DNA of 64,000 bases from Arthrobacter alpinus (GTDB taxonomy: Bacteria > Actinomycetota > Actinomycetes > Actinomycetales > Micrococcaceae). The notes beneath the pieces are model-generated. The model searched no databases. It was not told the origin of the DNA and worked only from the letters and a program-made list of their open reading frames with translations. Numbering within the stretch: the first letter of the stretch is position 1; the number at the start of each line of letters is the position of its first letter. Position numbers and translations under genes: made by a program. The stretch covers positions 62,001 through 126,000 of the forward strand of contig NZ_CP013200.1 of the NCBI RefSeq assembly GCF_001445575.1, in the 5' to 3' direction. Shown here in pieces: positions 3,241 to 59,446 of this stretch.

Positions 3241-4418
3241 ATGGAGGGAATTCCCCAGTCACGCAATGCCCCGCCCCGGCCTCCGGCGCGTGAACCCGGT
3301 CGCGTCCACTGGATGGAGCTGTTCTTCGATCTGGTGTTCGTAGCATTCGTGGGGCAGCTGGCCCACGGTATTCATGGCGATCCCGGCTGGCCAGAGTTCG
3401 GTACCTACCTGTTGCTTTTCTTCCCAGCGTGGTGGGCATGGGTCAATATTGTCTCAGTCATCAATCTTCTGCCCGGGCTCTCCGCCCGCGCGCTGGGCCT
3501 GGCGATGCTGTCTGCCATGGCGGCCTCGGCACTCATGGCTGCATCCGCGCCCGAAGCCTTCGGCGACAGGGCATGGGCGTTTTCGCTGGCCAACGGCGCC
3601 CTGCGAGTGCTGCTCCTTGTGTTGTGGCTACGCCAGCACCGAGAACATTCGGCCGACCCCTCCTGGCGGATCTGGATCTACAACGGCGGCACCGCCACCC
3701 TCTGGCTCGCCGCAGCGCTCCTGCCGCTGCCGGCCGCCGTGGTGCTCTGGGCGGTTTCCATTGCGGTGGAGGTGGGCATGGTGGCCAACAGCAACCGGAT
3801 CGGGGCCGACCGCAGCATGGCCTCCATCAACATTGAACACGCCGCCGAGCGCTTGGGCTTGTTCGTCATCATCGTGCTGGGAGAATCGGTGTTCAGCATT
3901 GTCACGGATGCCTCGGCCGACTGGAGTCCGGGCGCCGGGCTCGCGGCGTCACTAGGGTTCGTGATTGTGGCCCTGCTCGGCTGGGCGTTCTTCCAATACG
4001 GCGTGGGCACGCTATCCGCGGGACTGGAGCGGCTCCATGAGCGCGGGGACCTCGCCGGCATCTTGCAGACCACACTGTTCATGCCGTTTGTGCTGGTGGT
4101 TGGCGTGACCTCAATTGCCGCCAGCATCGCCACAGCCATCCCTGAGCCGTTTGAGCGGCTGCCTCTGGGTGCGTCCATTGCCCTTGGCGGCGGGATCGCT
4201 CTGCTCCACGGCATGAACGTCTCGGTCTCCTGCGCTATGGCCAGCCACCCCGCGCGGCCAATGCCTGGAACGTCCCCACAGTGGTAATTGCGCTGGTTCT
4301 CATACCGGTCAGTACTCGGGTGCCGGCCGCCGCCGCACTTGCCTTGCTGGTGTCGCTGTTGGTGCTGGTAACGGCCTACGTTGAATTCAAGGCACGACGC
4401 CGGGCGCGGGATAGTTGA
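3241..4418 (+). CDS. ltrA: Low-temperature-requirement A (LtrA) family membrane protein, apparent frameshift near the C-terminus
   Basis: A polytopic membrane protein of the LtrA family; its molecular function is not well established. The signature near the N-terminus, VHWMELFFDLVFVAFVGQL, and a later GESVFSI segment are typical. Many hydrophobic helices are visible. The frame opened at 3241 stops at 4287 after an unrelated tail, while another frame continues from about 4212 to the TGA at 4416-4418 with the expected last membrane helix and a basic end (FKARRRARDS). One missing base near the GG at 4210-4211 would rejoin them. I chose ATG 3241; the open frame runs further up into the palindrome but has no better start there, and no strong ribosome-binding site is visible. 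Confidence 0.82.
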
Positions 4419-4435
4419 GCGCGTGGCGGGGCCCA

Positions 4436-4486
4436 CACACCCAAGGGGCCACTAGTACAGACGCGCCAGCGGCTGCACTTGGGGCG
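4436..4486. repeat. Copy of a dispersed hairpin repeat
   Basis: It shares GGGCCCACA and the loop segment ACAGACGCGCCAGCGGCTG with the repeat at 48.5-48.76 kb. The flanking arms here are CCCAAG and CTTGGG, different in sequence but still complementary. It lies between the convergent ltrA and iron-transport genes. Confidence 0.65.
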
Positions 4487-4496
4487 GGCGTGGGGC

Positions 4497-5702
4497 TCAG
4501 TCCCAGGGGAAGACGACGCCTTCGCCGACCACCTTCAGTGACAGTTCCGTGCCGGGGCGGGCCAACATCGCGTTCCAATGCCTGATGGTGATGATTTCGC
4601 CACCGACCGGCTGGTGCGGATCGAGGGGGTGATCGGCGTCGACCTTGATAGCGTCCAATTGGATTCGGACAGTAGTTTCGGGGCCAAAGTAATCGGTGTC
4701 GACCACGCGCCCGCGGATGGGGCCGCCGTCGGCAATACGGATTTGTTCGGGCCGGAGCATCAGATGCACTTTGCCTTGAATGGGTGGGCGGCGTACGGGG
4801 ATTCCGCCGAGCGAGCAGAGCGCTAGGGAGCCTTCCAGCCATGCTTCGATAATGACGGCGTCTCCCAGAAATTCTGCCGTGGCCCTGTCAGCCGGGCGGG
4901 TGTAGACAACGAAGGGACTGCCGATTTGGGCCAGCCTACCGTCGCGCATGACGGCCACTTGGTCGGCGAAGCTGAGCGCCTCCGCTTGATCGTGCGTGAC
5001 GAGGATGGTGGTCACCCCGGCCTGTTCCAATGTTTGGGAGACCGCGCGCCGGGTAGCAACGCGCAGGCCAGCATCGAGCGCGCTGAACGGTTCATCCAAC
5101 AGCATCAGTTCCGGCTGGCGGGCCAGCGCCCGCGCCAAGGCCACACGTTGCTGCTGTCCACCGGATAGCTGGTGCGGGCGGCGCTTGGCATAGGAGGGGT
5201 CCATCGAGACCATTTCCAGCAACTCCCCCACCCGCAGCGATGCAGCTTTACCTCGCAAAGGCAACCCGAAGGCGATGTTGGCGCCCACGTTCAAATGCGG
5301 AAATAGTGCACCATCCTGCGCCACGTAACCAACGCTGCGCTTGTGGGCAGGATTCCACTGGGACGGTCCGGCCACTTCTTTTCCACCGAGTGCGATCCGG
5401 CCAGAATCGGGTGCCGAGAAACCTGCAATGAGCCGCAGTAGCGTGGTTTTTCCGGAGCCGGATGGCCCCACGATGGCTGTGGTGCGCCCTTGCATGACGT
5501 CCAAGTCCACGCCCTTGAGCACATCGGTGCCACCAAAACTCTTGTGCACATCGCTGACCTGCAAATGCGCCGGGGCATCGCTGGTGGCCTGCACAAAGGT
5601 CCTGCTCCCTGCCGTGACCGGCACAGGCGTACTTACAGCGGCGCCGTCGGCTGCGGGGTCGCCGGCTGCAGCTGCGCCGGACTGTTTGGGGTGAGAGGTC
5701 AT
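4497..5702 (-). CDS. Iron(III) ABC transporter, ATP-binding protein (FbpC/PotA type)
   Basis: The ATPase that powers import through the permease encoded just upstream. Walker A GPSGSGKT is at residues 79-86, the signature is LSGGQQQR and Walker B is [11 protein letters not shown]; the switch His is in [11 protein letters not shown]. The last third is a TOBE-type regulatory domain, as in FbpC and PotA. The first 45 residues are an extra low-complexity Ala/Pro-rich segment. Its ATG overlaps the permease stop (ATGA), so the two are translationally coupled. The operon order is binding protein, permease, ATPase. Substrate is inferred from the partner binding protein and the IdeR-like box. Confidence 0.88.
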
Positions 5703-7312
5703 TGGCCGGCCGCTTTCTTGGATTGCACGAACAGGAGGTAGGTCATGGGTGCCGAGAGCAGAATCATCAGCAAGGCATAGGGGGCAGCGCCCATGTAGTC
5801 GATTTCGCTGCTCAGCGACCAGAACTGCGTGGCCAGGGTCCGGGTGCCATTGGGGGCAAGCAGCAAGGTTGCTGTCAGCTCATTGGCAATTCCAAGGAAC
5901 ACCAGAGCGGCACCACCTGCCGCCGCCGGAGCTGAGAGCCGCAATGTCACGCGCATGAACGCCAGCAGGGGCGGTTTGCCTAGCGCCTGGGCGGCCTCAT
6001 CGAGTTCATACGGCACCTGAGCCAGACCTGCCCGCAGGTTCACGAGTGCTCGCGGCATGAACAACAACGCGTAAGCGGCCACCAGCACCAAGGAACTTTG
6101 GTAAATCGCGGGCACGTTGTGGACAGTGATTGTCACCAGTGCCAACGCCACCACAATGCCCGGCATGGAACTGGAAATATAGTTCACGGCTTCCAGAACC
6201 TTACTGACGGGCCCGGCATGTCGGACCACCAAATAGGCCAGAGGGAAGGCCAACACCGTTGTCAGCAAGGCGCCGGCCAAGCCATAGCCCAACGTTTGCA
6301 GCAACGTTTGCAGTAGATCGGAGCGCTGCCAGATGGCGGCTCCCCCGGCAACCAGCCAGCGGCCCACATGCCACAGCGGAACACCCAGGGCCAGCGCCGA
6401 CACCGCGATCAGGAACAGCTGACTGGGCCCCTGAAAGACGCCAAGTTTGAGGCGGCTGGGGTTTGATTGCACACCAGCACCAACCCGCGCATACCGGGCA
6501 CTGCCGCGGGCCCTGGACTCGGCCAGCAAGAGTAACAGGCAAAAGACCACCAGGACGCTTGCGAGCATATTCGCTGCAGCACCGTTGAACGTGGACCGGA
6601 ACTGGTCATAAATGGCGGTGGTGAAGGTGTCGAACGCAATCATGGCGAAGGCGCCGTATTCGGCCAAAAGGTGCAAGGACACCAGCAGCGCCCCGCCGGC
6701 CGTTGCGAGCCGAAGCTGCGGCAACACCACACGGAAAAATACTCGTACAGGTCCAAGACCCAAAGATGCCGCCGACTGTTCCAACGCCGGATCCAAGCGG
6801 CTCAGCACGGCCGCAACGGGAATGTACACTAACGGAAAATAGGACAGCACCGAAATGAGGACACCGCCAAAGATCCCACCCAGAGACGGAATGGCGCTGA
6901 CCCAGGCATAACTGTTGACGAAGGCCGGGATAGCCAGAGGTGCCGCCAGAAGTACGGCCCAGACCTTATGTCCAGCAAGGCTGGTGCGCTCCACCAACCA
7001 AGCACCGCCAACGCCAATCACCACACACAGCGGCACGGTGATGAGCACCAACAACAGCGTATTGAACAGCAGTTCGCCAACACGGGGTCGGAACACCATC
7101 GCAATCACGGTGTCCCACCCGGTGTTGGCGGTAGCGACCACCACGAATCCCAGCGGCAGCACGGAGAACGCGGCAATCACCAGGCACAGCACAACGACGG
7201 GCCAGGGGCCGAGGTGTGGACCCCGCCCCCCAGCCTTCTTAGCCAAGGTGCGCTTGGCCAAAGTATTGGCACCCAACCTAGGCGCCGACGTCGTACGTTG
7301 CTTGGAAGTCAT
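5699..7312 (-). CDS. Iron(III) ABC transporter permease (FbpB type, duplicated membrane domain)
   Basis: A 537-residue permease with two homologous six-helix halves, the arrangement of FbpB/SfuB ferric permeases. Each half carries an EAA-type cytoplasmic loop: [20 protein letters not shown] in the first and [20 protein letters not shown] in the second. A basic N-terminus precedes the first helix. The gene begins 5 bases after the binding-protein stop and overlaps the ATPase gene by 4 bases, so all three should be made from one transcript. The alternatives are spermidine or thiamine import; the iron assignment rests on the binding protein. Confidence 0.88.
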
Positions 7313-7317
7313 TGACG

Positions 7318-8382: not shown

Positions 8383-8437
8383 GAGAGCCTTTCGGCAGTA
8401 GAAACAATTAGCGAAGATAAGTTGATCGTAATCGATC

Positions 8438-8456: not shown

Positions 8457-8469
8457 CTTTTCCCCTAAT

Positions 8470-8530: not shown

Positions 8531-9031
8531 CTACTGCGCAGTAGATGACGTTTTGTGCAGCAACTCTGCGGCCCGCGCTACACGCTGGTGCACCAGCTCC
8601 GCTTTGAGCTCCACGGCCTGGGTAGTGCCCACGCCCAGCCTCAGTAAGGCCAGTGACTCTGCCGTTGCCGCCAGAGCATTGCCAGCCCTGGATAGCTCCC
8701 GGTGCACGTCATTGAGGTATCCGCCCGTTCCTGTAGGGATTTCCATCCCCTCGCTGGGACCGGCTGCCTGCGCCTCCACGGCTAGGCCGCGCACCACAGG
8801 CAGCAGGTCCGCTAGCCGGTCTGCCAGCCGCACCATGGCGTCATAGTTTTCGGTAGCCATCGCCGCCTCCGGCGCTTCGGCTTCTGCTAGCCCTTCAAGC
8901 ATTTGGTGGAAACGGTCAAGTCCACGGCGGAAACGGTCATGGGCTCGACGCCACACACCCTTGCCGAGTTCGGCATCGTCGCGCTTGGCCTGCCGGCTGG
9001 CACTAAAAAGCCCCTTGAACATGCCGCTCAT
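8531..9031 (-). CDS. Uncharacterised helical protein coupled to Bpa
   Basis: I do not recognise a named family. The 166-residue protein has no signal peptide or membrane helix and looks largely alpha-helical, with a basic N-terminal third (GVWRRAHDRFRRGLDRFHQM) and a Leu/Ala-rich remainder that may form helical hairpins. Its ATG overlaps the stop of bpa by four bases (ATGA), so the two proteins are made together and may act in the same process. A role as partner or substrate adaptor of the proteasome activator is a guess from context only. The gene ends this operon. Confidence 0.75.
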   Translation of the reverse strand: MSGMFKGLFSASRQAKRDDAELGKGVWRRAHDRFRRGLDRFHQMLEGLAEAEAPEAAMATENYDAMVRLADRLADLLPVVRGLAVEAQAAGPSEGMEIPTGTGGYLNDVHRELSRAGNALAATAESLALLRLGVGTTQAVELKAELVHQRVARAAELLHKTSSTAQ

Positions 9032-15708: not shown

Positions 15709-15833
15709 TGCACTTGGCTCAATAGCGTTCCCTTATTTCTGTCCGCGGAGTGCCTTGTGCCGTTCTCGGAGCAGCTTACGGGCGATCATCACTCAAGGCA
15801 CAACGGCGTGCCACCCATTCGAGAGTTGGAGAC

Positions 15834-18800
15834 ATGACGAGCAACAACTTCTACAAGGCAGGACTCGGGGCCGCCTTGGCCCTAGGGCTCGCCGTTGCAC
15901 CGCTGGCGATTTCGCCCGCGCTGGCCAACGACGGACCCACACCAACAGAAACCACAGCAGCTGCGAGCACTGAAGCAGCCGCAAAGCAAAGTCCGACGGC
16001 GGATCCCTCACCGACTCTCGCAGCGGCACCGGCGGCTCCTCTGGCAGCCGCCCCGGCACCGGCGAACGTCATCATCAACGAGGCCTATGTCAACGGTGGC
16101 AGCGCTAACGCCACCTACAAGAATAAGTTTGTGGAGTTGTACAACCCCACCGCTGCGGACATCAACCTAAGCGGCTGGTCACTGCAGTACCGCTCCGGGA
16201 CAGGATTAGCGGCACCCACCGGACTGACTCCCCTGTCCGGCACCATCAAGGCCAACGATTACTTCCTGATCAAGGGCAACTCCAACGGTGACGCGGGCCT
16301 TGAACTACCTGCCACCGACGCGGATTCCAGCGGATTTGCTTTTGCTGGTGGTGGCGGCACGCTCATCCTCTCTAACCAAGCCACCAAGCTGCCGGCAAAC
16401 TTGGCCACGGGCTCCCTCACTGGCACGGCCGGTGTCGTTGATCTTCTGGGCTTCGGCACCTCCAACACTTTTGAGACAGCCGCGTCCTCGGCCGCTTCAG
16501 TCACCAACTCCCTGAACCGCAGCAACTTCGCGGACACAGACAACAACTCGTTGGACTTCACCCGTGCAACCCCCACCCCACCGGCACCCAGGGCGCAGGC
16601 GAGCCGCCCGCTCCCCCGAAGATGCCGGTATCAAAACCATCGCCGAGATCCAGGGCGAGGGCGCCAAGAGCCCCCTCGAAGGATCCACCGCCACCACCAA
16701 GGGCAAGGTCACCGCCGCCTACCCCACCGGCGGATTCAACGGCTACTTTATCCAGACCCCCGGGACCGGTGGCGATCTGGACATGGCAACCCACAAGGCC
16801 TCCGATGGCATCTTCGTCTATTCACCCGCGACCGTGGGTAGCGTCAACATTGGCGATTACGTCCAGGTCAAGGGACTCGTCAAGGAATTTGGCGGCGCCA
16901 CCGGCAGTACCACTACCGAGATCGACGTCGCCGCAGGTGGAATGACCAAACTGGACGACGCAGCGGTAGAGGTCAAGGCCGCCGTCGTCAGCGTTCCGGC
17001 AAGCACGGACGCACGCGAAACGCTCGAGGGCATGCTCGTTGCGCCCCAAGGTAAATTCACCATCACGGACAACTACTCACTGAGCAACTATGGCGAAGTC
17101 GGCCTGGCGACCGGGACCGCCCCGTTGGTCCAGCCCACCGCCGTGGCTCCGTATGGATCCGATGCATACAAGGCACAGGTTGAGCAGAATGCTGCCCGTG
17201 CCATCAAGCTCGACGACGGCGCCAGCACCAACTTCCTCAGCGCCGCCGGCTCTGTTGTTCCCTTGCCTTGGCTGAGCCAGGGTACGCCGATGCGCGTTGG
17301 ATCCGTCTCCGAGTTCATTGCTCCGGTGATTTTCGATGACCGTAACAGCGCCTACAAGTTCCAGCCTCTAGAAGCACTGACCCCAGACAACGCGGGAAAT
17401 GTGCAGCCCATCGCTTTCGGAAACACCCGGGCAGATGCACCCAATGACGTCAAGGGCAACCTCAAGGTTGCGTCCTTTAACGTCCAGAACTACTTCACCG
17501 AGACCGGTGATAAGAACCCCAGCTGCCAGTTCTACACCGACTACAGCGGCAACAAGATCAGCGTTAAGGGTGGCTGCGACCAGCGCGGAGCCGCCGATGC
17601 CGCGAATCTCTTGCGTCAACAGGACAAGATCGTCTCTGGCATCAACGCCTCCACGGCAGATGTGCTTTCGTTGGAAGAGATTGAGAACTCTGCAAAGTTT
17701 GGCAAGGACCGCGACGCGGCTCTGTCCACGCTCGTTGATGCCCTCAACGTAGCGGCCCCGGGAGTCTGGGACTATGTCCGCTCACCTGCTGCAGATAAGC
17801 GTCCCGCCGTTTCTGTAGAGGACGTGATCCGTACGGCCTACATTTACAAGAAGGCCGTCGCCGTGCCCGTTGGCGAATCGGTCATCCTTGATGATGCCGC
17901 TTTCACCGGCATTGCCCGGCAGCCGCTGGCCCAGTCCTTCAAGTTGGTTGGTGCCGCCGATTCTTCCAAGGTGCTGCTGATAGTCAACCACTTCAAGTCC
18001 AAGGGTTCAGCGATCGGAAACGACACCGATCAGGGGCAGGGCAACTCCAACCTGGCCCGCGTAGCGCAAGCTAAGGCTCTGGTGAAGTTCTCCACTGAGC
18101 AGCAGACCGCGCAAGGTACCAATAAGGTCCTCCTGATGGGTGACTTCAACGCCTATGGCTTTGAGGATCCCATCACCGTCATGACTGCCGCCGGTTACGT
18201 TGACCAGGATCCCAAGACGGGTAAGCACTCGTACAGCTTTGGCGGGATGGTTGGCTCACTGGACCATGTTCTTGCTTCCCCGGCTGCCGAAAACATCATC
18301 ACAGGCGCCGACATTTGGAACATCAACTCCGCTGAGTCCATTGCCATGGGCTACAGCCGTTACAAGTACAACGCAACGGACTTCTACACCCCGTCCATGT
18401 TCTCTGCTTCAGACCATGATCCCGTGGTGGTGGGCTTGAACCTCGCTACTGCTCCGGTAACGACTAAGGAAATCAACCTTCTAAACATCAATGATTTCCA
18501 CGGCCGCATTGACGCCAACACGGTGAAGTTTGCCGGCACGGTGGAGCAGCTGCGTGCAGCCTCAGGCGATGCCAATACGGCGTTCCTGTCCGCTGGCGAT
18601 AACATCGGTGCAAGTGTGTTTGCCTCGTCATCGCAAGACGACTTGCCCACCATTAATGTGCTGAACGCGCTGGATCTGCAGGCGTCCGCCGTCGGAAATC
18701 ATGAGTTCGACAAGGGCTTCGCTGATCTGGAAGGCCGTGTGGTTGACGCAGCCAACTGGGACTACCTCGGTGCCAACGTGTACAAGAAGGGCACCACCAC

Positions 18801-20634
18801 CCCGGCGCTCGATGAGTACAAGATCGTCACGGTCAATGGCGTGAAGGTGGCCATCATCGGCGCCATCACTCAGGAGACCCCAACCCTCGTCACTCCGTCC
18901 GGCATCTCCATGCTGGACTTCGGTGATCCCGTTGAAGCAGTCAACCGCGTGGCGAAGAAGATCACCGACGGCAATCTGGCCGATGTCATCGTGGCCGAAT
19001 ACCATGAGGGAGCCGGAGCCGGAACACCGGAAAAGGCAACCCTCGAGCAGGAAATTGCCGCAGGCGGCGCCTTCAAGGAGCTCGTGACAAAGACCAGTGC
19101 CTCGGTCAACGCCATCTTCACCGGGCACACTCACAAGCAGTACGCCTGGGATGCACCCATCCCTGGCATTTCCGCTGATGCGGCCTTGAAGACCCGCCCC
19201 GTGCTCCAGACCGGAAGCTATGGCGAGTTTATCGGCCAGATCAAGCTCACGGTCGACGCCGACAACAAGGTTGTCTCCTACACGCAGCGCAATGTGCCCC
19301 GAACCACCGCTGACGACGCCGCGCTCGTGGCCAAGTTCCCCCGCGTGGCGGAGGTCAAGACGATCACCGACAAGGCTCTGGCCGATGCCAAGGTTGCCGG
19401 TAGCGTCCCCGTTGGCAAGATCGCAGCTGACATCACCACGGCGCAGACCTTCGACGCCGCAACGAACAAGTTCATTCGTGACGACCGCGCCAGCGAATCC
19501 ACTCTAGGCAACCTGGTGGGCAACGCCCTCTTGGATGCGCTCAAGTCGGATCGGACAGGTGGAGCCGAGATCGGCGTCGTCAATCCCGGCGGCCTCCGCG
19601 CTGACCTGCTCTACAAGAACACCGGATTCGAGGATGGCGTGGTTAGCTACGCCGCCGCCAATGCGGTCCTGCCGTTCGTGAACAACCTATGGACCACCTC
19701 CCTCACCGGTGCGCAGCTCAAGACCCTGCTGGAGCAGCAGTGGCAGACTAACGCGGACGGCACTATCCCCAGCCGGCCGTTCCTGAATCTGGGCCTGTCC
19801 AACAACGTGGACTACACCTACGATTCCAGCCGCGCACTCGGCGATCACATCACCTCCGTGGTCATCAACGGCGCACCCTTGGATCTGGCGCGCTCCTACC
19901 GCGTAGGTACGTTCAGTTTCCTTGCAACGGGTGGCGACAACTTCCGCGTCTTCACCGAGGGTACCAACACCAAGGATTCCGGTCTCATTGACCGCGATGC
20001 TTGGATTACCTACCTCGGAGAGAAGTCCAAGGCTGCCCCGATCGCACCCGATTTCTCCCGCCGCGGCGTGGACGTAGTCGATGCACCAGCTGCTGTAACG
20101 GAGGGCCAGAAGGTCACGATGAAGCTCAACAAGCTGGATCTGACTTCACTGGGCAGCCCCGACTCCACCAAGGTTGCCGTCCGTTACGAACCTTCGGGCA
20201 GCGGCGGCGGCATCGGATTCGCCGTGCTCGGCGCAGCGGTTCTGCCGTCCGAACTGGGTACTTTCCCCGTCACCGACGGAGCTGCGACGCTGAGCTTCAC
20301 GGTGCCGGAACAGCTCAACGCCGGACGCTTCACCATCACCACCGACGGTGGAACATACGCCCGCCTGCCGATCACCATCCCGGTGACGGCCGACGCCGGC
20401 ACACCGACACCGACGGATACAAGTACGCCGAGTCCCACTGGAACCAGCACGACGCCGGGGGCCTCACCGTCCTCGCCGTCAACAGCGGGTGCCGGAAACG
20501 GCCCCGGTAACGGCTCGGGTGACCTCCCCAACACGGGAGCCACCGTGCTTCCGCTCGGTTTGGGCGCCTTGGTTCTGCTTGGAGCAGGTGCTGCAGTCGC
20601 CATGGCTAACCGCCGCAAGGCAGCTAAGCACTAG
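15834..20634 (+). CDS. Giant LPXTG-anchored extracellular nuclease/5'-nucleotidase (two apparent frameshifts in a linker)
   Basis: A secreted enzyme of about 1,600 residues that should degrade extracellular DNA and release phosphate from nucleotides. In order: signal peptide ending near SPALAND; lamin-tail domain (VIINEAYVNG onward); an OB-like domain (EIQGEGAKSP onward); an endonuclease/exonuclease/phosphatase domain (KVASFNVQNYF, LEEIENS, LLMGDFNAYG, SDHDPVVVG); a calcineurin-type phosphoesterase (LLNINDFHGRID, GNHEFDKG, FTGHTHKQ); the 5'-nucleotidase C-terminal domain (VNPGGLRADL); a Pro/Ser/Thr linker; then LPNTG, a hydrophobic helix and basic tail, the sortase anchor. The frame changes twice between about 16575 and 16616; adding one C at each C run restores a single frame, reading TPTPTGTQGAG and then PPAPPEDAG. 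ATG 15834 starts the signal peptide. Confidence 0.88.
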
Positions 20635-20899: not shown

Positions 20900-22869
20900 T
20901 TAGTCGAGGATGGCTGCGGCGATCGCGTCGGCGTCCAAGACGGTGCGGTAACCGCTGCGGTACTTGGCGGAGGCCTCCGCCGCGATAGCGGTACCCCATT
21001 GAGTTGAGGACAGCTGCAATCCCAAAACATACAGCCCCTCAACCGGCACACCGATCCCATCCACGGGACGGTACGGCGGCGCAGTGACGTCCAAACCGCT
21101 AGTGACCACGGGTCCGCCGTCGGAAGCCATCATCATGCGGGGCCGGACAATGCCGTCGGCCAACAGGTTTTGCAACAAGGGGGACGCACTATTTTGCGCG
21201 TTGTTAGACGGGGCCAATGCCTCGATCAGGTGGCGCGCTTCCCACGGGATATCGGCCACCCATGGAGAGCTGGCGGTGAACACCCCGTGCTGGACGCGGA
21301 ACACCGGATCCGGCCCAGTGAAATGAACCACCCCGGCCCGCACCAGCGCGGCCAACTGTTCCACGCGGATAGCTGGCGGACCGCTGGCCAACCCCTCCAC
21401 GAAGCCTTCAAACCAGCCGCGCAACTCCCCCAGCCACGATGCCTGAGTGATGCCGCGGTCAGCCACAAGAGATTTCACAATGGCACGCCCGGCATTCAGC
21501 GCACCAATAGCCATCTTGACCGGATCGTCTTCGCCGAGCGCGGACCCGGCAGCGTCCGCCACCAGGTACTCCAGCACGGCGGCGTCCAGCTGTTCGTGGG
21601 TGGCAAAGTGCCTGCCCGCACTAGGGAGTCCCCCACGGTCGGCGAGCCCGGCATCACTGGCTTTTTGCCCAGCGAGAGGGCGGGCCAGCCCGGGCAAGTC
21701 CAACACATGCCCGTGCTGCACGTGCCGCCCCAGCAACTCCGCGAGCTCCTGCTCCCAGGCCGGGGATCCGCCGTCGAGCCCGGTATGCAGCATGGCATCA
21801 AGCTCAGGCAACAGCTCGGGGGTGACCAGCTCGGGGCGGGTCCGGGCCAGCGTGGTGTAGTACGCCCAGATGGTATCGCGGTGCAGCAGCGGCCAAATAT
21901 CGTGGTCAAAACCGGCTGTGGCACCCATGGCGCGAATGGCGGCCACGGCATCCTCGCCCAGGAATCGCAGCGTGATCGATTGCGGGTAGTACGCGGCCAG
22001 TTCGGCCTTGGCCCGGTATGGCGTCCCTCGCCGCGAAGCGCCAACGATCACCGGCTCACGCCCTGACGCCACATACCGCAGCGCCTCGCCCGCCGGACGC
22101 CCGGTGTCCTCAAAACGCCCGCCGCGGCCCTCGGTCAGCTGGCCCAGCACATCAAAAAAGTTCAATCCCATGCCACGCACCAAGACGGTTTCGCCAGCGG
22201 GCAGCTGATCCCAATCCACATCGTTGGGCACGGCCGGGGGCAGGTACGTCAGCCCATGCTGGCGGGCGTCATCGCGCAGTCCGCGCTGGGCCGGACTCAG
22301 TTTCGACTCCACGTGCCCCAGCGCCAGCACCACCTGATCCGCGCGCAGCGTGCCACCGTCAAGGAGTACGACGTCGAACCCGCCTTGGGTGCGATCCCGC
22401 ACCACTCGCTTCGCCTCAGTGGCGTGATTGACCAGGGTGACTCCGGCTGGCAGGTTTTCGCGCAGCTGCTCAAAGCACCAGCTCAGATACCGGCCGTAGA
22501 TGGCACGGCTGGGGAAATTATTCGCAGCCAGGGCCGCCAACTCCTGCTGATCGCCTTCGCTGAGTCCGGGCCAGGGGGTGTCCAGCTGGGCCGCGCGCCA
22601 CTGGTTGAACGTGCAACCGGCTACGGGCGGAGCATCCACGCCCTGGTCAGGAATCAGTGTTGGAAAAAAGCTCTGGGTGTTCATCAGGTACAGGCGCGAT
22701 TGCTCCGTGCGCCAGACGTGGCCAGCCCCCGGGGCGAAGGGGTCAATGAGGTGTATGTGCAGCTCTCCGCCCTCGCTTTGAGCCCGGCGCGCCAACAGCC
22801 GTTCCACCACGGAAGTCCCGCGGGGCCCCGCCCCACAATTGCCACCGTCTGTACGCCCAAGGATTCCAC
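20900..22869 (-). CDS. FAD/NAD(P)-binding protein (FAD_NAD_binding_9 type), apparent frameshift near the N-terminus
   Basis: A soluble flavoprotein of about 650 residues; the reaction is unknown. The start ATG 22869 gives MESLGVQTVAIVG, then the frame is lost; the next frame supplies GAGPRGTSVVERLLARR. Adding one G to the run at 22831-22834 (plus-strand coordinates) makes the family's dinucleotide-binding motif VAIVGAGPRGTSVVERL, so the gene is probably intact in the cell. Further family blocks are ADQVVLALGHVES and VLVRGMGLNFFDVL, and near the end GVPVEGLYVLGLQLSSTQWG. It is divergent from the S9 peptidase gene and convergent with the nuclease. Members are sometimes named hydroxylases; I see no basis to choose. 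Confidence 0.8.
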
Positions 22870-22950
22870 TCCTTGAGCTTAACTGATGGAGCCTGCAGAG
22901 GCGGCCGCGGGACGAGCCGGGACGAGCCGGAGAACCCTGAACGGGCACAT

Positions 22951-23005
22951 GGTTGCGAGCTAACCGTGCGCAGCTCCAAGAGTGGCGCATGGTTAACTCG
23001 CAACC
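22951..23005. repeat. 21-bp imperfect inverted repeat in a divergent promoter region
   Basis: The arms 22951-22971 and 22985-23005 are complementary with two mismatches. They lie between the FAD gene and the S9 peptidase, whose start is only 27 bases away. Confidence 0.75.
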
Positions 23006-23032
23006 ACGCGCAGCTTCAACGAGGATGGATCC

Positions 23033-25134
23033 ATGACTGACCTTGCCCCGAGCCCCACACTTGCCCACGAACCCGCCGACGAATTCCTGTGGTTGGAAGA
23101 TATCCACGGCGACGACGCCATGACCTGGGTCCGTGAGCACAATGCCAGCACCGACGCCGCCTTGGTGAACCCCGCATATTCGGCGTTGGAGGCGCGAGTG
23201 CTGCAGGTACTGGACTCGGCGGACAGGATCCCGATGGTGTCCAAGCGCGGCGATTGGTACTACAACTTCTGGCGCGACGAGGCCAACCCGCGTGGGCTGT
23301 GGCGACGGACCAGCTGGGAAAGCTACCTCAGTGATGCACCCGAGTGGGACGTGCTGCTCGATGTTGATGCATTGAGCACCACCGAGGATGCCCAGTGGTT
23401 GTGGGCAGGAGCCTCATTCCTACGGCCAGCTCCCGGGAAGGAATACCGCCATGCCATGGTGGCGCTCTCGCCCGATGGCGGAGACGCGGTGGCATACCGG
23501 GAATTCGACCTTGCCACGCGCACGTTTGTGGCTGGCGGATTCGAGCTTCCGGCCGCCAAGACCCGGCTGAGCTGGGTGGATGCGGACACGCTCTATGTGG
23601 GCACCGATACCGGTGAGGGCTCCATGACAGCTTCTTCCTATCCGGCCGCTGCACGGGTGCTTCGTCGCGGCGAATCCCTGGCCCAGCTGGCCGCGAAGGA
23701 ACCGTTGTTCGCCGTCCCGCTGGACCACCTCAGCGGCGGCGTCTCCCACAGCAGCACTCCGGGATTCGAGCGGGACCTCGCCTACGATGTTTGGATTTCT
23801 ACAACAGCCGCAGCTACCTGCGCGTGGGCGATGACTGGGTGCACATCGACGTCCCGGATGACATGTCCGTTTCCCTCCACCACGAGTGGTTGCTCCTGCG
23901 CCCGCGCACCGATTGGAGTGTTTCCGGCAGTGTGTACGGCGCCGGCACCCTGCTGGCCATTGAGCTTGACGCATTCATGGCCGGCAGCCGTTCGCTGACC
24001 ACCATATTCGCCCCCTCGGCGGCGCAGTCGCTGCAGTCGTGGAGCCGGACCCGCGATTTCCTGCTGCTGAACCTGCTCTCCGATGTCTCGTCCAAGATCC
24101 TGGTGCTGGACCCGGCTGCGGACTGGGCCGCCTCGGAACTGGACGCCTGCCCGCCACTGCACTCGGTGGACGCCTTTGCCGTGGACGACGAGGATCCGGA
24201 CGCCGGCAACGACTACTGGCTTGTGGCGTCCGGATTCCTGACCCCCACCACCGTGCTGCGCGGCACCCTGACCCCGCGCGGCACCCCGGGTGCGGCCGCG
24301 GCGCTGGTCCGGGAGGCGCCGTCGTTCTTCACGGCGGAGAACTACTGCGTGGAGCAGCACTTTGCCACCTCCGCCGACGGCACCCGCGTGCCCTACTTCC
24401 AGGTGGGGCCCAAAGATCTGAAGCTCGACGGCGGCAATCCCACCTTCCTCAGTGGTTACGGCGGGTTTGAGGTGTCGCGGACGCCGGCTTACAGCGGCGC
24501 GGTGGGGCGCACCTGGCTCGAGCGCGGAGGCGTCTACGTGGTGGCGAACATCCGCGGCGGCGGCGAATACGGGCCCAACTGGCACACGGCCGCGCTCCAG
24601 GAAAACCGGCACCGCGCCTATGAGGACTTCGCTGCCGTGGCCCGCGATCTGTCGGCGCGAGGTGTGGCCTCCCCGGCGCATCTGGGGTGCGCAGGCGGTA
24701 GCAACGGTGGGCTGTTGGTGGGCAATATGCTCACGCAGTATCCGGAATTGTTCGGGGCGATTTCCTGTGGGGTGCCGCTGCTGGACATGCGCCGGTACAC
24801 GAAGCTATCCGCAGGTGCATCCTGGATTGCCGAGTATGGCGACCCGGATGTTCCGGAGCAGTGGGAATTCATCAAGACATTTTCGCCGTACCACCTGCTC
24901 CGTGCCGGGGTGAAGTATCCTGCCACGTTCATTTGGACGGCAACTTCGGATGACCGGGTGGGGCCCGTGCAGGCGCGCAAGATGGCGGCACGGATGGAAT
25001 CGATGGAAATTCCCGTCTGGTTCCACGAGGCGTTGGAAGGCGGTCATGCCGGTGCCGGAAACAACGAACAGGCGGCCAGACTGCATACGGCCTCGCATGA
25101 ATTCCTCTGGCGGGCTCTTAATGGTCAGCTGTAA
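23033..25134 (+). CDS. Prolyl oligopeptidase family (S9) serine peptidase, apparent frameshift
   Basis: A cytoplasmic S9 peptidase of about 700 residues that would cleave short peptides. The first frame (23033 to about 23790) begins FLWLEDIHGDDAM, the usual N-terminus, and covers part of the beta-propeller. The second frame continues as LDFYNSRSYLRVGDDW and ends with the catalytic domain: Ser in CAGGSNGGLLVGNM, Asp in TSDDRVGP and His in EGGHAGAG. One missing base near TTT 23790-23792 rejoins them as YDVLDFYNSRSY. With that the triad and full length are normal. ATG 23033 is the clear start. No signal peptide is seen. Confidence 0.85.
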
Positions 25135-44495: not shown

Positions 44496-46324
44496 CTAGG
44501 CTGCGAAGCGCTCCTTGAGGGTGCGCAACTCCTCGGACAGCTCGGCCGGGAGGGAATCACCGAAGCGGGCGTACCACTCATCGATACCCTTGAGCTCGGC
44601 ATCCCATTCAGCCGGAACCACCTTCAGCGCGTCTTCCAGGTCCGCTGCTGTGACGTCCAGACCGGCGACGTCGATGGCACCGGGGTAGGAATGAATCCGA
44701 TGGGTGTCTCTACGGCGTCGGCTTTTCCTTCGATGCGCTCGATGGCCCACTTGAGCACGCGGCTATTCTCGCCGAATCCGGGCCACGCGAATCCGCCAGA
44801 TTCAGTGCGGCGGAACCAGTTGACCAAGAAGATCTTGGGCAGCCGGGCCTGGTTGGCCTTGGCCGAGAGGCTGATCCAGTGCTTGAGGTAGTCTCCTGCG
44901 TCGTAGCCGATGAACGGCAGCATGGCCATGGGGTCGCGGCGAACAACGCCCACGGCACCCGTGGCGGCAGCAGTGGTTTCAGAAGAAAGCGTTGAGCCCA
45001 TGAAGATCCCGTTGGTCCAGCTGCGAGCCTCGGTAATGAGAGGGATGGTGGTCTTGCGGCGACCACCGAAGAGGATGGCGTTGATTTCAACACCCTCGGT
45101 GTTGAAGTAGTCCTTGGACAACATGTCCACCTGGTCGATCGGGGTGGCGAAACGGGAGTTGGGGTGCGCAGCCGTGCGGCCGGCAGCCGGCGTCCAGTCA
45201 TGACCCTCCCAATCAGTCAGGTGAGCGGGCACTTCGGTGGTCATGCCCTCCCACCACACGCCGCCGTCGTCAGTCAGGGCCACATTGGTGAAGATGGAGT
45301 TGCCCTTGACAATCGCGGCCATGGCGTTGGGGTTGGTGGCCCAGCCGGTACCGGGAGCCACGCCGAACAAGCCAGCTTCGGGGTTCACTGCACGCAGCTC
45401 ACCCTCCTTACCGAAGCGCATCCAGTTGATGTCATCGCCCAGAGTTTCGGCCTTCCATCCGGGGATGGTCGGTTCCAGCAGCGCCAGGTTGGTCTTGCCG
45501 CAGGCCGAGGGGAACGCCGCAGCCACATGGTAGGTCTTCTGCTCGGGGCTGGTGAGCTTGAGGATCAGCATGTGCTCTGCAAGCCATCCCTCATCCCGGG
45601 CCATGACGGAGGCAATGCGCAGGGCAAAGCACTTCTTGCCCAGCAAGGCGTTTCCGCCGTAGCCGGAGCCGAAGGAGAAGATGGAGCGCTCTTCAGGGAA
45701 GTGGACAATCCACTTCTCATCGTTGCAGGGCCAGGCAACGTCCTTTTCGCCGTCAGCCAGCGGGGCTCCTACGGAGTGCAGTGCCGGGACGAAGAAGGCG
45801 TTGGTGTCCTCGATCTTGCGGAGAACGTCGGTGCCGATGGTGGCCATGATGCGCATGGAGGCAACAACGTAGGCGGAGTCAGTGATCTCCACGCCGAACT
45901 TGGGGTCCTGCGCGTCGAGCGGTCCCATGACGAAGGGGATGACGTACATGGTGCGTCCGCGCATGCTGCCGGCGAAGCGCTCGTTGAGGATCTCCTTCAT
46001 GGCGGCTGGATCCATCCAGTTGTTGGTGAAGCCGGCGTCGCGCTCCTTTTCGGAGCAGATGAAGGTGCGGTCCTCTACTCGGGCCACATCTTTGGGGTCC
46101 GAGAATGCTGCGAAGGAATTGGGGAAAAGTTCCGGGTTCAGGCGAGTGAAGGTACCTTCATTCACCAGGTCGTCCGTCAACAGGGCATATTCCTGCGCAG
46201 ACCCGTCTACCCAGCGGATGCTCTCCGGCAAGGTCAAAGCTGCAACCTCAGCTACCCAGGCGGCGAGGCCCTCGTGGGTAGTCATTGCCTGCTCAACGGA
46301 TTCCTGCACTGGCGCGTTGCCCAT
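44496..46324 (-). CDS. pckG: Phosphoenolpyruvate carboxykinase (GTP), apparent frameshift near the C-terminus
   Basis: The gluconeogenic enzyme that turns oxaloacetate and GTP into PEP and CO2. Family blocks: [17 protein letters not shown], the P-loop [15 protein letters not shown], the GTP-site segment [21 protein letters not shown] in parts. The main frame goes wrong after GFIPTP; the next frame continues [19 protein letters not shown] to the proper end TLKERFAA at 44496. One extra C in the coding-strand CCCC run (plus strand 44682-44685) restores a normal 600-residue protein. The start is ATG 46324, seven bases after AAGGG, rather than ATG 46339. A CRP-like site lies upstream. Confidence 0.9.
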
Positions 46325-46475
46325 TGTGTTGCCCTTCATTGGGTGGGTAGGTGATGTCTAAATGCTATGGCTCGTTTTTCGGCAGTCTTGAGCATTGGAC
46401 ATGGGATGTATTGCTTCGGACGCACGTAAGTTTCCCGACTTTCCGGGGTTTTTCAGGTTTGTTATCGAACCCATT

Positions 46476-46606: not shown

Positions 46607-46679
46607 GCGTGCGTAGCTCAATGGATAGAGCACCTGACTACGGATCAGGAGGTTGGGGGTTCGAGTCCCTTCGCGCGCA
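46607..46679 (+). tRNA. tRNA-Arg (ACG), copy 1
   Basis: GCGTGCG pairs with CGCGCGC (one G-T), discriminator A, no encoded CCA. The anticodon stem CCTGA/TCAGG holds loop CTACGGA, anticodon ACG at 46640-46642. It is identical to the copy 185 bases downstream. Confidence 0.96.
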
Positions 46680-46791
46680 CTTATACGGCAGGCTCCCAAG
46701 CTTCGGCATGGGAATCTTTCGTTTAACACCGGCTTGACCCAGTAGGGTTGGAGCTACCGTTGACTGGAAGGTCAACAAAGTAATTGAATAT

Positions 46792-46864
46792 GCGTGCGTA
46801 GCTCAATGGATAGAGCACCTGACTACGGATCAGGAGGTTGGGGGTTCGAGTCCCTTCGCGCGCA
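46792..46864 (+). tRNA. tRNA-Arg (ACG), copy 2
   Basis: Same 73 bases as copy 1, anticodon ACG at 46825-46827. Similar leaders (CAACAAAG shortly before) and similar trailing hairpins suggest a local tandem duplication. Confidence 0.96.
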
Positions 46865-46870
46865 CTTGAT

Positions 46871-54651: not shown

Positions 54652-55475
54652 GCAAGCACACAGCAGCTGCCGCCAAAAACGGAGCTACCCCGGTCATTGA
54701 ACTGAAGGACCTGCACGTTCACCACCGGACCCGCTCCGGAGGACTGTTCAAGCCCAGCTACGTCAAGGCCGTCAATGGCGTGGACTTCTCCATCAGCCGC
54801 GGCGAGACCGTTGGCATTGTGGGCGAGTCCGGTTGTGGCAAGTCAACACTGGCTTCGGTTCTGGTAGGACTGCAAGAACCCACTTCAGGTGAAGTGTTGT
54901 TCCATGGCAAGCCCGCCATCAAGCGCAACGCCGCCATGCGCAAGGAATTCGGCCGCTCCGTCTCCGTAGTCTTCCAAGACCCGTCGACGGCACTGAACCC
55001 GCGCATGACCATCCAGGACATCCTGCTTGACCCGCTGATTATTCACGGGATTGGCAACGGCGCATCGCGCCTGGCCAAGGTTGCCGAACTCTTGGCGCTG
55101 GTTGGCTTGCCGCAGTCGGCAGCCGAGGTCACGCCGTCGCAAGTTTCCGGTGGACAGCGCCAGCGTGTGGCTATTGCCCGCGCCCTGGCCTTGGGCCCGG
55201 ACATCATGGTGGCCGATGAACCCACCTCGGCACTGGATGTTTCTGTCCGCGCTCAGGTACTGAACTTGCTCTCGGATCTGAAGAAGGAACTGAACCTGGG
55301 CATGGTTTTCATTAGCCATGACATCCAGACAGTTCGCTACGTTTCTGACCGCATCTGTGTCATGTACTACGGGCAGATTGTGGAGCAGGGCTCCGCGGAG
55401 CAGATCTTTGACAACCCCACCAACGACTACACGAAGAAGCTCCTCGGCGCCGCGCCGTCCCTTCTTCACATCTGA
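54648..55475 (+). CDS. ABC transporter ATP-binding protein (DppF family)
   Basis: The second ATPase of the importer, 275 residues. Walker A GESGCGKS is at 59-66, Q-loop VFQDPSTALNPRMT, signature [15 protein letters not shown], Walker B IMVADEPTSALDVSV, switch His in FISHDIQTV. It ends with the short SLLHI tail after DYTKKLL; the long iron-sulfur extension of some members is absent. Its ATG overlaps the stop of the fusion gene by four bases. Confidence 0.9.
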   Translation: MSKHTAAAAKNGATPVIELKDLHVHHRTRSGGLFKPSYVKAVNGVDFSISRGETVGIVGESGCGKSTLASVLVGLQEPTSGEVLFHGKPAIKRNAAMRKEFGRSVSVVFQDPSTALNPRMTIQDILLDPLIIHGIGNGASRLAKVAELLALVGLPQSAAEVTPSQVSGGQRQRVAIARALALGPDIMVADEPTSALDVSVRAQVLNLLSDLKKELNLGMVFISHDIQTVRYVSDRICVMYYGQIVEQGSAEQIFDNPTNDYTKKLLGAAPSLLHI

Positions 55476-55523
55476 TTTTCCCCATAGTTTTCCACCCATC
55501 AATACAAATTTGGAGCAATTCAC

Positions 55524-56453
55524 GTGACTACCGTCGCTACCCGTTTCCAGGGCGTTATCCCTCCCGTCTGCACCCCCCGCACAGCTGAAGGCGCCATTGA
55601 CGTCCCCTCGCTGGAGAACCTCACCCGCCACCTGATCGAAGGCGGCGTGAGCGGCCTGTTCGTCAACGGCTCCTCCGGCGAAGTGACCCACCAGACCAAC
55701 GACGAGCGCGACACCGTACTGCGCACCATTGCCGGCGTCAATGCCGGACAGGTCCCGTTGCTGGTAGGCGCTGTTGAGCAGACCACCAACCGCGTGGTTG
55801 AAGAAGCCCGCCGCATGGTCTCCCTGGGTGCCGACGCCATCGTCGCGACCAGCCAGTACTACGCCATCAGCAACGCTGAAGAGACCGGCCGCCACATCCG
55901 CACCGTGGCAGCCTCGGTGGACGTACCGTTGTTCGTTTACGACGTTCCGGTTCGCACCCACTTCAAGATGCCCACCGACCTGCTCCTGGAGCTGGGCCGC
56001 GAAGGCGTCATCGCCGGTGTCAAGGACTCCTCCGGTGACGATGTTTCCTTCCGCCAGCTGCTCATTGGTGCCAAGGACATCCCGAACTTCGACATCTTCA
56101 CCGGCCACGAAGTGGTTGTTGACGGTGCACTGCTCGGCGGCGCACAGGGTGTTGTGCCGGGCCTGGGTAACGTTGACCCCAAGGCTTACCGCCGCCTGTA
56201 CGATCTCTCCGTTGCTGGCGACTGGGCCGGTGCCGCTGCTGAGCAGGACCGCATCGCCGATGTCTTCAACATTGTTTACACCCCGAAGGCTGGCCGTCTC
56301 TCCGGCAACGCAGCAGGTCTGGGCGCGTTCAAGACCGCCCTGGTCCTCATGGGCATCATCAAGACCAACGTCATGAGCGCTCCGATGCTCGCGTTGGACG
56401 AAGATGAGACGGCAGCCATCAAGGTTATCCTTGAGCGCACGGGCCTGATCTAG
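55524..56453 (+). CDS. nanA: N-acetylneuraminate lyase (DapA/NanA superfamily)
   Basis: It splits sialic acid into N-acetylmannosamine and pyruvate. A class I aldolase barrel of 309 residues: the pyruvate-binding NGSSGEVTH, the catalytic Tyr in FVYDVPVRTHF and the Schiff-base Lys in GVIAGVKDSSGDD. By sequence alone it could be another DapA-type lyase; the ROK kinase and ManNAc-6-P epimerase downstream make sialic acid by far the most likely substrate. GTG-rich leader, with GGAGCAATTC before ATG 55524. Confidence 0.86.
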   Translation: MTTVATRFQGVIPPVCTPRTAEGAIDVPSLENLTRHLIEGGVSGLFVNGSSGEVTHQTNDERDTVLRTIAGVNAGQVPLLVGAVEQTTNRVVEEARRMVSLGADAIVATSQYYAISNAEETGRHIRTVAASVDVPLFVYDVPVRTHFKMPTDLLLELGREGVIAGVKDSSGDDVSFRQLLIGAKDIPNFDIFTGHEVVVDGALLGGAQGVVPGLGNVDPKAYRRLYDLSVAGDWAGAAAEQDRIADVFNIVYTPKAGRLSGNAAGLGAFKTALVLMGIIKTNVMSAPMLALDEDETAAIKVILERTGLI

Positions 56454-56538
56454 AACTTCTGTTCTGAACTGACTTCTGAAATCACTGAGCCATTCTGGTC
56501 TCAGGTGATCTAAGCTGCAGTTGATCTAAGCCGCTTTG

Positions 56539-56570
56539 CTGCTGCCCGGACGGATACGCCCGGGCAGCAG
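56539..56570 (+). terminator. Intercistronic stem-loop between lyase and kinase genes
   Basis: CTGCTGCCCG (56539-56548) pairs with CGGGCAGCAG (56561-56570) over a 12-base loop. No T run follows, so read-through or mRNA processing is more likely than full termination. Confidence 0.55.
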
Positions 56571-56641
56571 AATGGAAGCTTAGCTTTTGAATGTGCATCA
56601 ACCCCCGTTGTACGTGAACCACAGTCTTTGAAGGATCTTTC

Positions 56642-57574
56642 ATGCGGTACGTAGTTGGCGTTGACCTTGGCGGAACCAAAACAGCTGCCGGAGTGGTGGG
56701 CGAGGACGGCTCGGTATTGCTTACCGATCAAATTCCCACCCTGAACCGCGACGGCGGCGAGGCCATTCTTGATGCCACGACGGCCCTGATCGCCTCCCTC
56801 ATTGAACGTGCCGCAGCCATGGGTGCCGCCGTGGAAGCCGTAGGCATTGGCTCCGCTGGCGTCATCAATGCCGCCGAAGGCACAGTCATTTCCGCCACCG
56901 ACGCCATCCTCGGTTGGAGCGGAACAGCCATCACCGCGGGACTGACCGCCCGGCTGGGACTGCGCTGTGCCGTGGTCAATGACGTTCATGCCCATGCGCT
57001 GGGCGAGGCGTGGCACGGTGCCGGGGAGGGTGCCGCTACCGCTCTCATGGTTGCCTTTGGCACAGGAGTGGGCGGCAGCTTTGTCATCCAGGGCCAGCCG
57101 GTGCTCGGTGCGCACTTTGTGGGCGGGCATGTGGGGCACTTTGCCTCGCCGCTGGCTGTGTACCGCGGAGCTCCGTTGCCTTGTTCCTGCGGACATGAGG
57201 GTCATGTGGAGGCCATCGCCTCAGGTCCCGCGATCCACGCCGCCTACCTCCGTCACGGTGGCAGCGCCGCCCTGAGCGATACGCGCGAGGTGTTTGATGC
57301 TGCCCGGGCCGGAGATGATCTAGCCTTGGCCGTGATCGCCACCGCAGCAACGGCCGCCGGACAGGCAGTGGGCGGACTCATCAACATTCTGGATCCCGCC
57401 GTGGTGGTAGTCTCCGGAGGGTTGGCCGACGCCGGAGAACTGTGGTGGGATGCCATGGAGAAGGCCCTCCGCACAGAACTTCTGGCTCCCCTGGCCTCTG
57501 TGGCAGTGGTGCGAGCCAGCTTGGGCAACACTGCCGCCATAGTGGGCGCAGCATCCTTGGTCCTTGCCTCATAA
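56642..57574 (+). CDS. nanK: N-acetylmannosamine kinase (ROK family)
   Basis: It phosphorylates ManNAc to ManNAc-6-phosphate. The ATP motif VGVDLGGTKTAAGVV is at the N-terminus; catalytic Asp lies in CAVVNDVHAHALGE; the sugar site includes GTGVGGSFVI and GGHVGHF. The zinc motif is CSCGHEGHVEA: the third Cys of the usual CxCGxxGCxE is His here. ATG 56642 begins the conserved MRYVVGVD. It is followed by nanE 28 bases later. Confidence 0.88.
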   Translation: MRYVVGVDLGGTKTAAGVVGEDGSVLLTDQIPTLNRDGGEAILDATTALIASLIERAAAMGAAVEAVGIGSAGVINAAEGTVISATDAILGWSGTAITAGLTARLGLRCAVVNDVHAHALGEAWHGAGEGAATALMVAFGTGVGGSFVIQGQPVLGAHFVGGHVGHFASPLAVYRGAPLPCSCGHEGHVEAIASGPAIHAAYLRHGGSAALSDTREVFDAARAGDDLALAVIATAATAAGQAVGGLINILDPAVVVVSGGLADAGELWWDAMEKALRTELLAPLASVAVVRASLGNTAAIVGAASLVLAS

Positions 57575-57602
57575 TTTCGATTCATCTTTCCTAGGAGTCA
57601 CC

Positions 57603-58289
57603 ATGACACTGAAAATGACCAACTTTGATGCGCTTGCCGGGCAGCTTGTTGTATCCGCCCAGGCCTACCCGGGAGAGGCCATGCGCGATCCCCGCACCAT
57701 GGCCCAGATTGCCGCCTCAGCCGTAGTGGGCGGGGCTGCGGCCATCCGGGTCCAAGGCATTGCTGATATCCAGTTCGCTCGCGCTGCTGTGGAAGTTCCC
57801 GTGATCGGGCTCTGGAAAGACGGGCACGACGGCGTCTTCATCACCCCCACGCTGCGCCACGCCCTCGCCTGTGCCAGCGCCGGTGCCCACATCGTGGCCA
57901 TTGACGGCACGCGCCGCCCCCGCCCGGACGGGCTGACCCTGGCCGAGACCATTGCCGGCGTGCATGCCAATTCCAATTCGCTGGTCATGGCCGACTGTGG
58001 CTCCTTCGAGGACGCCGTTGCAGCTGCCGAAGCGGGCGCCGACCTGATCGGGACCACCTTGGCTGGCTACTCGGGCGAACGCCCCAAGACCGCCGGCCCG
58101 GATCTGGAACTCATCGCCGCGATCGCCGCCGCCAACTTGGGCAAGCCGCTCATCGCCGAAGGCCGCATCCACTCCCCCGCCCAGGCTCGGGCAGCAATGG
58201 ACGCCGGAGCCTTTGCCGTGGTGGTGGGTACCGCGATCACACACCCTTCCACCATCACCAGCTGGTTCAAGGCTGCTCTGGACGCCTAA
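57603..58289 (+). CDS. nanE: N-acetylmannosamine-6-phosphate 2-epimerase
   Basis: It converts ManNAc-6-P to GlcNAc-6-P, which then enters amino-sugar metabolism through genes not in this window. The NanE barrel shows LVVSAQAYPGEAMRDP, AAIRVQGIADI, VIGLWKDGHDGVFITP and the catalytic region AIDGTRRPRPDG, then LIAEGRIHSPAQA and VVGTAITHP. The frame is open from 57564, but TAGGAG before ATG 57603 sets the start. Last gene of the operon, followed by a palindromic terminator. Confidence 0.93.
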   Translation: MTLKMTNFDALAGQLVVSAQAYPGEAMRDPRTMAQIAASAVVGGAAAIRVQGIADIQFARAAVEVPVIGLWKDGHDGVFITPTLRHALACASAGAHIVAIDGTRRPRPDGLTLAETIAGVHANSNSLVMADCGSFEDAVAAAEAGADLIGTTLAGYSGERPKTAGPDLELIAAIAAANLGKPLIAEGRIHSPAQARAAMDAGAFAVVVGTAITHPSTITSWFKAALDA

Positions 58290-58328
58290 AGCGAGCGTTC
58301 CGCCAGCACTCCTTGCCGCACCTCACCT

Positions 58329-58391
58329 CGAGTGGGCAGTAGATACCAATGTTTCTGAGCAACATTGACATCTACTGCCCACTCGATTGTT
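58329..58391 (+). terminator. Terminator-like 25-bp palindrome after nanE
   Basis: The arms 58329-58353 and 58361-58385 pair with two mismatches over a 7-base loop; ATTGTTTT follows. Confidence 0.8.
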
Positions 58392-58511
58392 TTAAGCTCG
58401 TTCACACGGCAGAGTACGCAGAAGTGTGGATGAGTCTCACCACACTTCCTTGCACTGACCAGTCAGTTCTGATAATTTGTTCCAGTCACCCCCGCCTCGA
58501 AGGAGCGCCCT

Positions 58512-59446
58512 ATGCTCACTGCCCAACAGTTGCACGTCGCAGGGAGGCGCCACACCCTGTTGCCCGCCACCACTGCCGAAGCACACCGGGGTGAAGTGCT
58601 GCTCATCCAGGCCGACGGACAGGAACGCCGCACCGCTCTCGCCTTGTCCTTGACCGGCCGCATGAAGCCATCAACGGGGTCCGTGACGCTGGGCCACGAC
58701 GCCTCCATGTCTTCCCTTCGGCGGCGCAGCGCTCTGGTTGATTCACCGAACGTGAATGCTCCCGAACACCACCTCACCGCCCGGTCCATGACGGCCGAGG
58801 ATCTGGCCTTGGTGCCACTGAAGTTCCGCGACCGCACCCGCCCCACGGCGTGGCTGGTCAAGCATGGCTTCCGCGATGTTCTGGACCAGTGGATCGAGGA
58901 GTTGGCACCTGAACGGCTCCTGCACCTCCAGCTGGAATTGGCCTTGGCGAACCGAAATGTTGAGTTACTTGTTCTGGATTCCCCGGACCGCCACACCGCC
59001 GATATCTCCGCATGGTTGCCCCTGATGGAGGCAGCTGCGGCGGGCGAGCTTGGCCATGGCGACGACCCCGCAAGCACGCTCACGCCCCGCCCAATCATGG
59101 TGATTGGCGTTGTGGGCGGCTACCCGATGAGTGGGATGGACCGGCCGTCATCGCTGGCAATGCCGTTACGCTCGAGACTTTGGAGCACGACGGCGAAGAA
59201 CCTCCCGCCGCTACTCCCGGCGCAGACGAGATGGGGGCAGACGAAGTGGGAGTAGAGGAACTGAGCTCAGACGAGCTGCCGGACGATGACGTACCCGTAG
59301 AAGAGCCAGACTCTGCGCCCGCGGAGGAACCTTCAGGGGACGTCGCTGGGCAGGAGGCGGAACCGGCCCCGCCGCCCCTCACGAGCACCGCAGATCACCC
59401 CATCACATCAGCTCCAGTCGAGCCCACCCCGGAGGAAAAGCCATGA
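58512..59446 (+). CDS. Degenerate ABC ATPase-like protein with acidic tail, apparent frameshift
   Basis: The outline of an ABC ATPase is visible but its active site is lost. The Walker A position reads ADGQERRTAL instead of GxxGxGKT, the signature reads ELAPERLLHLQLELA, and Walker B reads LLVLDSPDRH, with no catalytic Glu. The first frame ends at 59255; another frame gives GPAVIAGNAVTLETLEHDGE and a 90-residue Glu/Asp/Pro-rich tail ending at 59446. One more G in the run at 59132-59134 joins them (PMSGDGPAVIAG). The stop overlaps the Pip/YhgE gene (ATGA), so the two are co-translated. A non-catalytic partner is the likeliest role. Confidence 0.75.

Follow-up and report, generated by a model that had tools for sequence, protein, structure and literature searches.

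Conserved genes that break off and resume in another reading frame raise the question of whether the organism has lost them or the sequence record has lost bases. The window analyzed here, the whole 64,000-nucleotide stretch that forms bases 62,001–126,000 of a larger contig in a 4.33-Mb Arthrobacter genome of two contigs, contains six such genes: ltrA, a large nuclease gene with two breaks in its linker, an FAD protein gene, an S9 peptidase gene, pckG (GTP-dependent PEP carboxykinase), and an ABC-like gene. A sequence-only reading had proposed that these carry seven frameshifts, each by loss of one base, and that lost bases in the sequence data explain them better than gene decay.

Relatives and alignments

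The nearest kin in the named genome collection are other Arthrobacter, where pckG reaches 91% identity, in Arthrobacter sp. H35-MC1 and A. psychrochitiniphilus. From each of five relatives, 80 kb of syntenic DNA was compared with the window; gene order is mostly conserved, and DNA identities are about 70–90%. Frame changes were detected by frameshift-tolerant protein-to-DNA alignment of intact homologues, and of the open reading frames (ORFs) of the relatives, against the window, and database homologues were aligned for ltrA, the ABC-like gene and pckG (the best 20, 21 and 20, respectively, of the 120 matches listed for each). A scan for frame changes between tblastn pieces confirmed four of the sites, missed those of the FAD and ABC-like genes, and gave many false alarms close to N-termini; the frameshift-tolerant aligner was used in its place. 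Genomes are referred to by label where several are compared: G014 is taken to be A. alpinus, G002 A. stackebrandtii and G006 Arthrobacter sp. ERGS1:01, and G024 is A. psychrochitiniphilus GP3.

Seven one-base-short sites in six genes

All seven breaks are present, and at every one of them the window is one base short in nucleotide alignments with the relatives. The coordinates proposed from the sequence alone are correct to about 20 bases by frameshift-tolerant alignment, and the features are collected in Table 1. The shift is supported in 5/5 relatives for both nuclease sites and for the FAD, S9 and pckG sites, in 4/4 relatives with a homologous ORF for the ABC-like gene, and in 2/2 for ltrA, the remaining three giving no alignment across the site; no relative's alignment that spans any of the seven sites lacks it. 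The same one-base shortfall appears against every database homologue aligned for ltrA (20/20), the ABC-like gene (21/21) and pckG (20/20), these being the best of 120 matches listed for each, and there are no in-frame stops in the alignments of these 20, 21 and 20 homologues across the breaks. The frame is thus intact in all relatives whose alignments cross a site and in all 61 database homologues (20 + 21 + 20). Frameshifts shared with relatives, which the sequence-only reading had named as evidence that would count against it, were looked for, and no relative or homologue aligned shares a break.

Table 1. Positions in the window of the interrupted genes and of their one-base-short sites
Feature	Coordinates	Strand	Basis and remarks
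ltrA (LtrA family, PF06772), upstream piece	3118..4287	+	Pfam, E 1.6e-58; the rest, about 60 codons, is in another frame; 20/20 homologues run across the break
ltrA one-base-short site	4219..4231	+	Alignments with relatives and homologues
Nuclease gene, upstream piece (lamin tail domain, PF00932)	15750..16841	+	Pfam
Nuclease gene, downstream piece (Exo_endo_phos, Metallophos, 5_nucleotid_C)	16564..20634	+	Pfam
Nuclease linker, first one-base-short site	16566..16581	+	5/5 relatives
Nuclease linker, second one-base-short site	16607..16619	+	5/5 relatives
FAD protein ORF	20900..23140	-	First 13 codons out of frame with the remainder
FAD gene one-base-short site	22830..22830	-	Alignment with relatives
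S9 peptidase, upstream piece (Peptidase_S9_N)	23033..23998	+	Pfam
S9 peptidase, downstream piece (Peptidase_S9)	23791..25134	+	Pfam
S9 one-base-short site	23789..23792	+	5/5 relatives; outside any C or G run
pckG (GTP-dependent PEP carboxykinase)	44508..46339	-	Main ORF 44624-46339 plus a tail of about 60 codons in another frame; PF17297, PF00821
pckG one-base-short site	44680..44686	-	5/5 relatives, 20/20 homologues
ABC-like gene	58512..59446	+	ORF 58512-59255, continued in another frame by ORF 59012-59446
ABC-like one-base-short site	59112..59118	+	4/4 relatives, 21/21 homologues

All seven events are in one sense (losses 7/7, gains 0), and the earlier statement that no insertion is seen holds for the well supported events in the window; the remaining shifts and stops lie near over-long N-termini or arise against over-long reference ORFs. 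On these alignments we regard the observation of seven one-base-short breaks as confirmed.

The intact forms of the genes are close at hand. The nuclease is a single unbroken ORF of 1583–1728 amino acids in all five relatives, and the closest proteins among the matches listed are whole: an A. alpinus LtrA (96.8% identical), a PEP carboxykinase of Arthrobacter sp. N199823 (96.7% identical), which carries the 12-residue motif that the sequence-only reading had restored, and an ABC-like protein from a metagenome (96.5% identical). PF00821 has two abutting matches in the genome (pckG). We also note a tandem pair of tRNA-Arg (acg) genes at 46607–46865, with 111 nt between them.

Selection beyond the breaks

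In the nuclease, FAD and S9 genes the sequence after the break has dN of 0.07–0.19 against dS of 0.70–2.26. The tails of pckG, ltrA and the ABC-like gene are more diverged than their heads (in pckG, dN of 0.17–0.22 versus 0.06–0.08), which at first sight reads as relaxed selection; that reading was rejected because comparisons between intact homologues give an equal contrast. Across 10 pckG, 8 ltrA and 8 ABC-like homologues chosen for this comparison, mean identity before and after the position of the break is 0.909 and 0.723 for pckG, 0.813 and 0.661 for ltrA, and 0.808 and 0.436 for the ABC-like gene, and the three window genes fall inside this pattern. The relaxed selection past the breaks that decay predicts is therefore not apparent, and a very recent loss would leave no such trace. 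Nor is there the mixture of disabling changes, stops together with gains and losses, that decay would bring; no stops occur in the alignments spanning the well supported shifts, and the window has losses only.

G/C-run context of the sites

The sequence-only reading had further held that lengthening a C or G run by one base restores a family motif at five of the seven sites, with ltrA probably the same, and this stands in part. The PEP carboxykinase and FAD motifs do exist in homologues: the FAD proteins of the five relatives contain VIVGAGPRGTSVMERL or AIVGAGPRGTSVMERL, and the G run at the FAD site is four long in the window and five long in 4/5 relatives. The S9 site, however, lies outside any C or G run, and at the positions tested the G/C runs near the ltrA, ABC-like and one of the nuclease sites are only 2, 3 and 3 bases long.

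The context was therefore counted over 16 sites chosen as sound, seven from the window and nine from outside it, with 20,000 random positions as the background. Nine of the 16 have a G/C run of four bases or more within 7 nt, compared to 8.3% of random positions (binomial p 1.2e-6, which assumes independent sites, the aligner positions being accurate to a few bases), and 13 of the 16 have one of three bases or more, compared to 35.6%. The longer run is absent at seven of the chosen sites, S9 among them, and the runs near sites are 2–5 bases long as called. The homopolymer part of the explanation is a statistical one. Events close to N-termini were left out of the set, as were the shifts at 179,233, 293,292, 298,380, 361,625, 222,797, 616,181, 625,907 and 429,738. 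The shift at 298,380 is upstream of clpB, and that at 293,292 precedes the true start codon of a DUF3073 gene, although it is one of the eight clusters counted in the stricter census described below.

A split seryl-tRNA synthetase gene

Outside the window, the seryl-tRNA synthetase gene (serS; contig 1, 718,020–719,293) is split by a one-base-short site into two overlapping pieces, residues 1–195 and 193–425, and is a whole single gene in 13/13 other genomes. The N-terminal domain family of this enzyme, PF02403, has a single match in the genome, and no second seryl-tRNA synthetase copy was found in it. Seryl-tRNA synthetase is indispensable to the cell. Unless frameshifting operates genome-wide, this break cannot be real.

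Frame changes elsewhere in the genome and in relatives

Two censuses place the window in a wider setting. The stricter one covered 444 kb of chromosome and required support from at least two reference genomes. It finds eight one-base-short clusters and a single one-base-long cluster in 226,614 tested bp of this genome, four one-base-short in 213,223 bp of G014 (A. alpinus), one short and two long in 205,911 bp of G001, none in 197,871 bp of G002 (A. stackebrandtii), one short in 44,079 bp of G006, and none in 45,784 bp of G024; there are no stops in the alignments spanning its well supported shifts. The wider census, with an interior filter, covered 844 kb and finds nine short and one long in 386,771 bp of this genome, the sole one-base-long event being in a gene that also carries stops. 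The corresponding counts are three short in 398,019 bp of G014, one short in 200,471 bp of G002, and one short, three long and one stop in 236,080 bp of G001, all within two multiply defective genes. The shift at 179,233 in this census is doubtful, because it also turns up in G002 when that genome is aligned with the G014 ORF concerned; leaving it out brings this genome to eight and G002 to none. A single-reference census of the 844 kb was set aside for its noise near N-termini and at over-long ORFs of the relatives, the stricter filters being preferred.

This genome thus leads in one-base-short events, with A. alpinus a weaker version of it, and mixed damage marks the real pseudogenes. Judging from the events in G014, part of the one-base-short background could be real. 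Chance is not a serious issue, with six same-sense broken genes set against a background that, in three relatives and by the stricter filter, is 0–4 events per 200 kb. By loose count the window has seven events and the 780 kb beyond it nine accepted ones, and with the same two-reference filter applied there are three clusters inside and five outside, a slight difference; because the window was reported for looking rich, we read nothing into its event density.

Among the relatives, one-base-short shifts in conserved genes are found in G014 (L095 at about 7,506 and 8,674–8,689, and L098 at about 4,758) and in G006 (L099 at about 7,432), and a G001 gene with several one-base-long shifts (L083, about 1,848–2,780) is judged by its mixed damage to be an ordinary pseudogene. 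Single-base gaps in highly conserved non-genic DNA are mostly in rRNA operons, with losses and gains in balance against A. alpinus (12 and 10) and G001 (12 and 14), and at 4 and 1 against G002; one leader site aside, these counts neither support nor refute lost bases. Ahead of the DUF3073 gene (contig 1, about 355,290; L115, about 9,292), some 100 nt match three relatives at 90–100% identity in most 50-nt bins, with neighboring DNA about 50–78% identical, and this segment is itself one G short. It may be a conserved leader RNA; the upstream region has no Rfam match at E <= 1.

Mutations, restored frames or lost bases

If the breaks belong to the organism, they could be genuine recent pseudogenes, with real one-base deletions in six genes that are too young for visible decay. 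Replication slippage in runs is able to delete bases, very recent deletions would likewise leave low divergence past the breaks, and the clade does contain real decayed genes, two of them in G001 and another in this genome (with a stop and a shift, at concatenated position about 207,236–207,320). These recognized decayed genes, however, have stops or mixed shifts and the six in the window do not; moreover, all seven sites are one base short with none one base long, and serS is split likewise with no second copy found. We consider such recent deletions improbable.

Clearly less probable still is that the breaks are real and that the cell nevertheless makes the proteins, getting back into frame at G/C runs through ribosomal frameshifting or RNA-polymerase slippage. 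This would square a split essential serS with a living cell, and the sites do cluster by short G/C runs, but the runs are only 2–5 bases long, the S9 site is without one, and six unrelated genes as well as serS must have acquired the property inside one species. No examined relative or homologue needs it; a conserved shift site, as expected of programmed frameshifting, is not seen in the homologues, which are single-frame. Equally improbable to us is its boldest form, a cold-adapted Arthrobacter that regularly recovers its reading frames, that of seryl-tRNA synthetase among them, by slippage at short G/C runs. Run length is also what varies in phase variation; the usual phase-variable tracts are, however, far longer than the 2–5 bases by these sites, and the genes are metabolic and housekeeping ones, leaving this the least credible of the alternatives.

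We put at about 93% the probability that the seven breaks are mistakes in the sequence record and not mutations of the organism. The breaks are absent in independently sequenced relatives, run in one sense, are enriched at homopolymers and extend to an indispensable gene; together with the absence of stops and the selection still evident past the breaks, this upholds the preference of the sequence-only reading for lost bases over decay. Single bases would have been dropped during read calling or consensus building, preferentially in short G or C runs, and each loss in a coding region would cut one ORF into two. We infer a read or consensus error as the cause and, because the genome is in two contigs, long-read data without adequate polishing.

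Implications and comparison with known systems

The breaks are not a biological feature; they are ordinary as biology and serve as a data-quality warning. To users of the assembly, PEP carboxykinase, the S9 peptidase, the large nuclease and even seryl-tRNA synthetase would look broken and be annotated so. With about 2.3 such shifts for every 100 kb of coding sequence tested under the interior filter, a fair number of the apparent pseudogenes of this genome are probably not genuine, and metabolic models or pseudogene counts derived from it need checking against reads.

Bacterial pseudogenes formed by a recent frameshift resemble the genes described here in that a conserved gene is split by the shift, but here the shifts come with neither stops nor one-base gains, and they also affect an indispensable gene. 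Another likeness is offered by long-read-only assemblies, for which PMC8812927 gives homopolymer indels as the commonest residual errors in bacteria. In the one nanopore assembly treated in PMC12007338, false deletions form the majority of indels and fall in homopolymers of two to eight bases, mostly four to five; A/T runs exceed G/C runs among its deletion errors, whereas here the G/C runs stand out. The errors of such assemblies share with this window the single-base deletions, the preference for short homopolymers, and the split genes whose relatives are intact.
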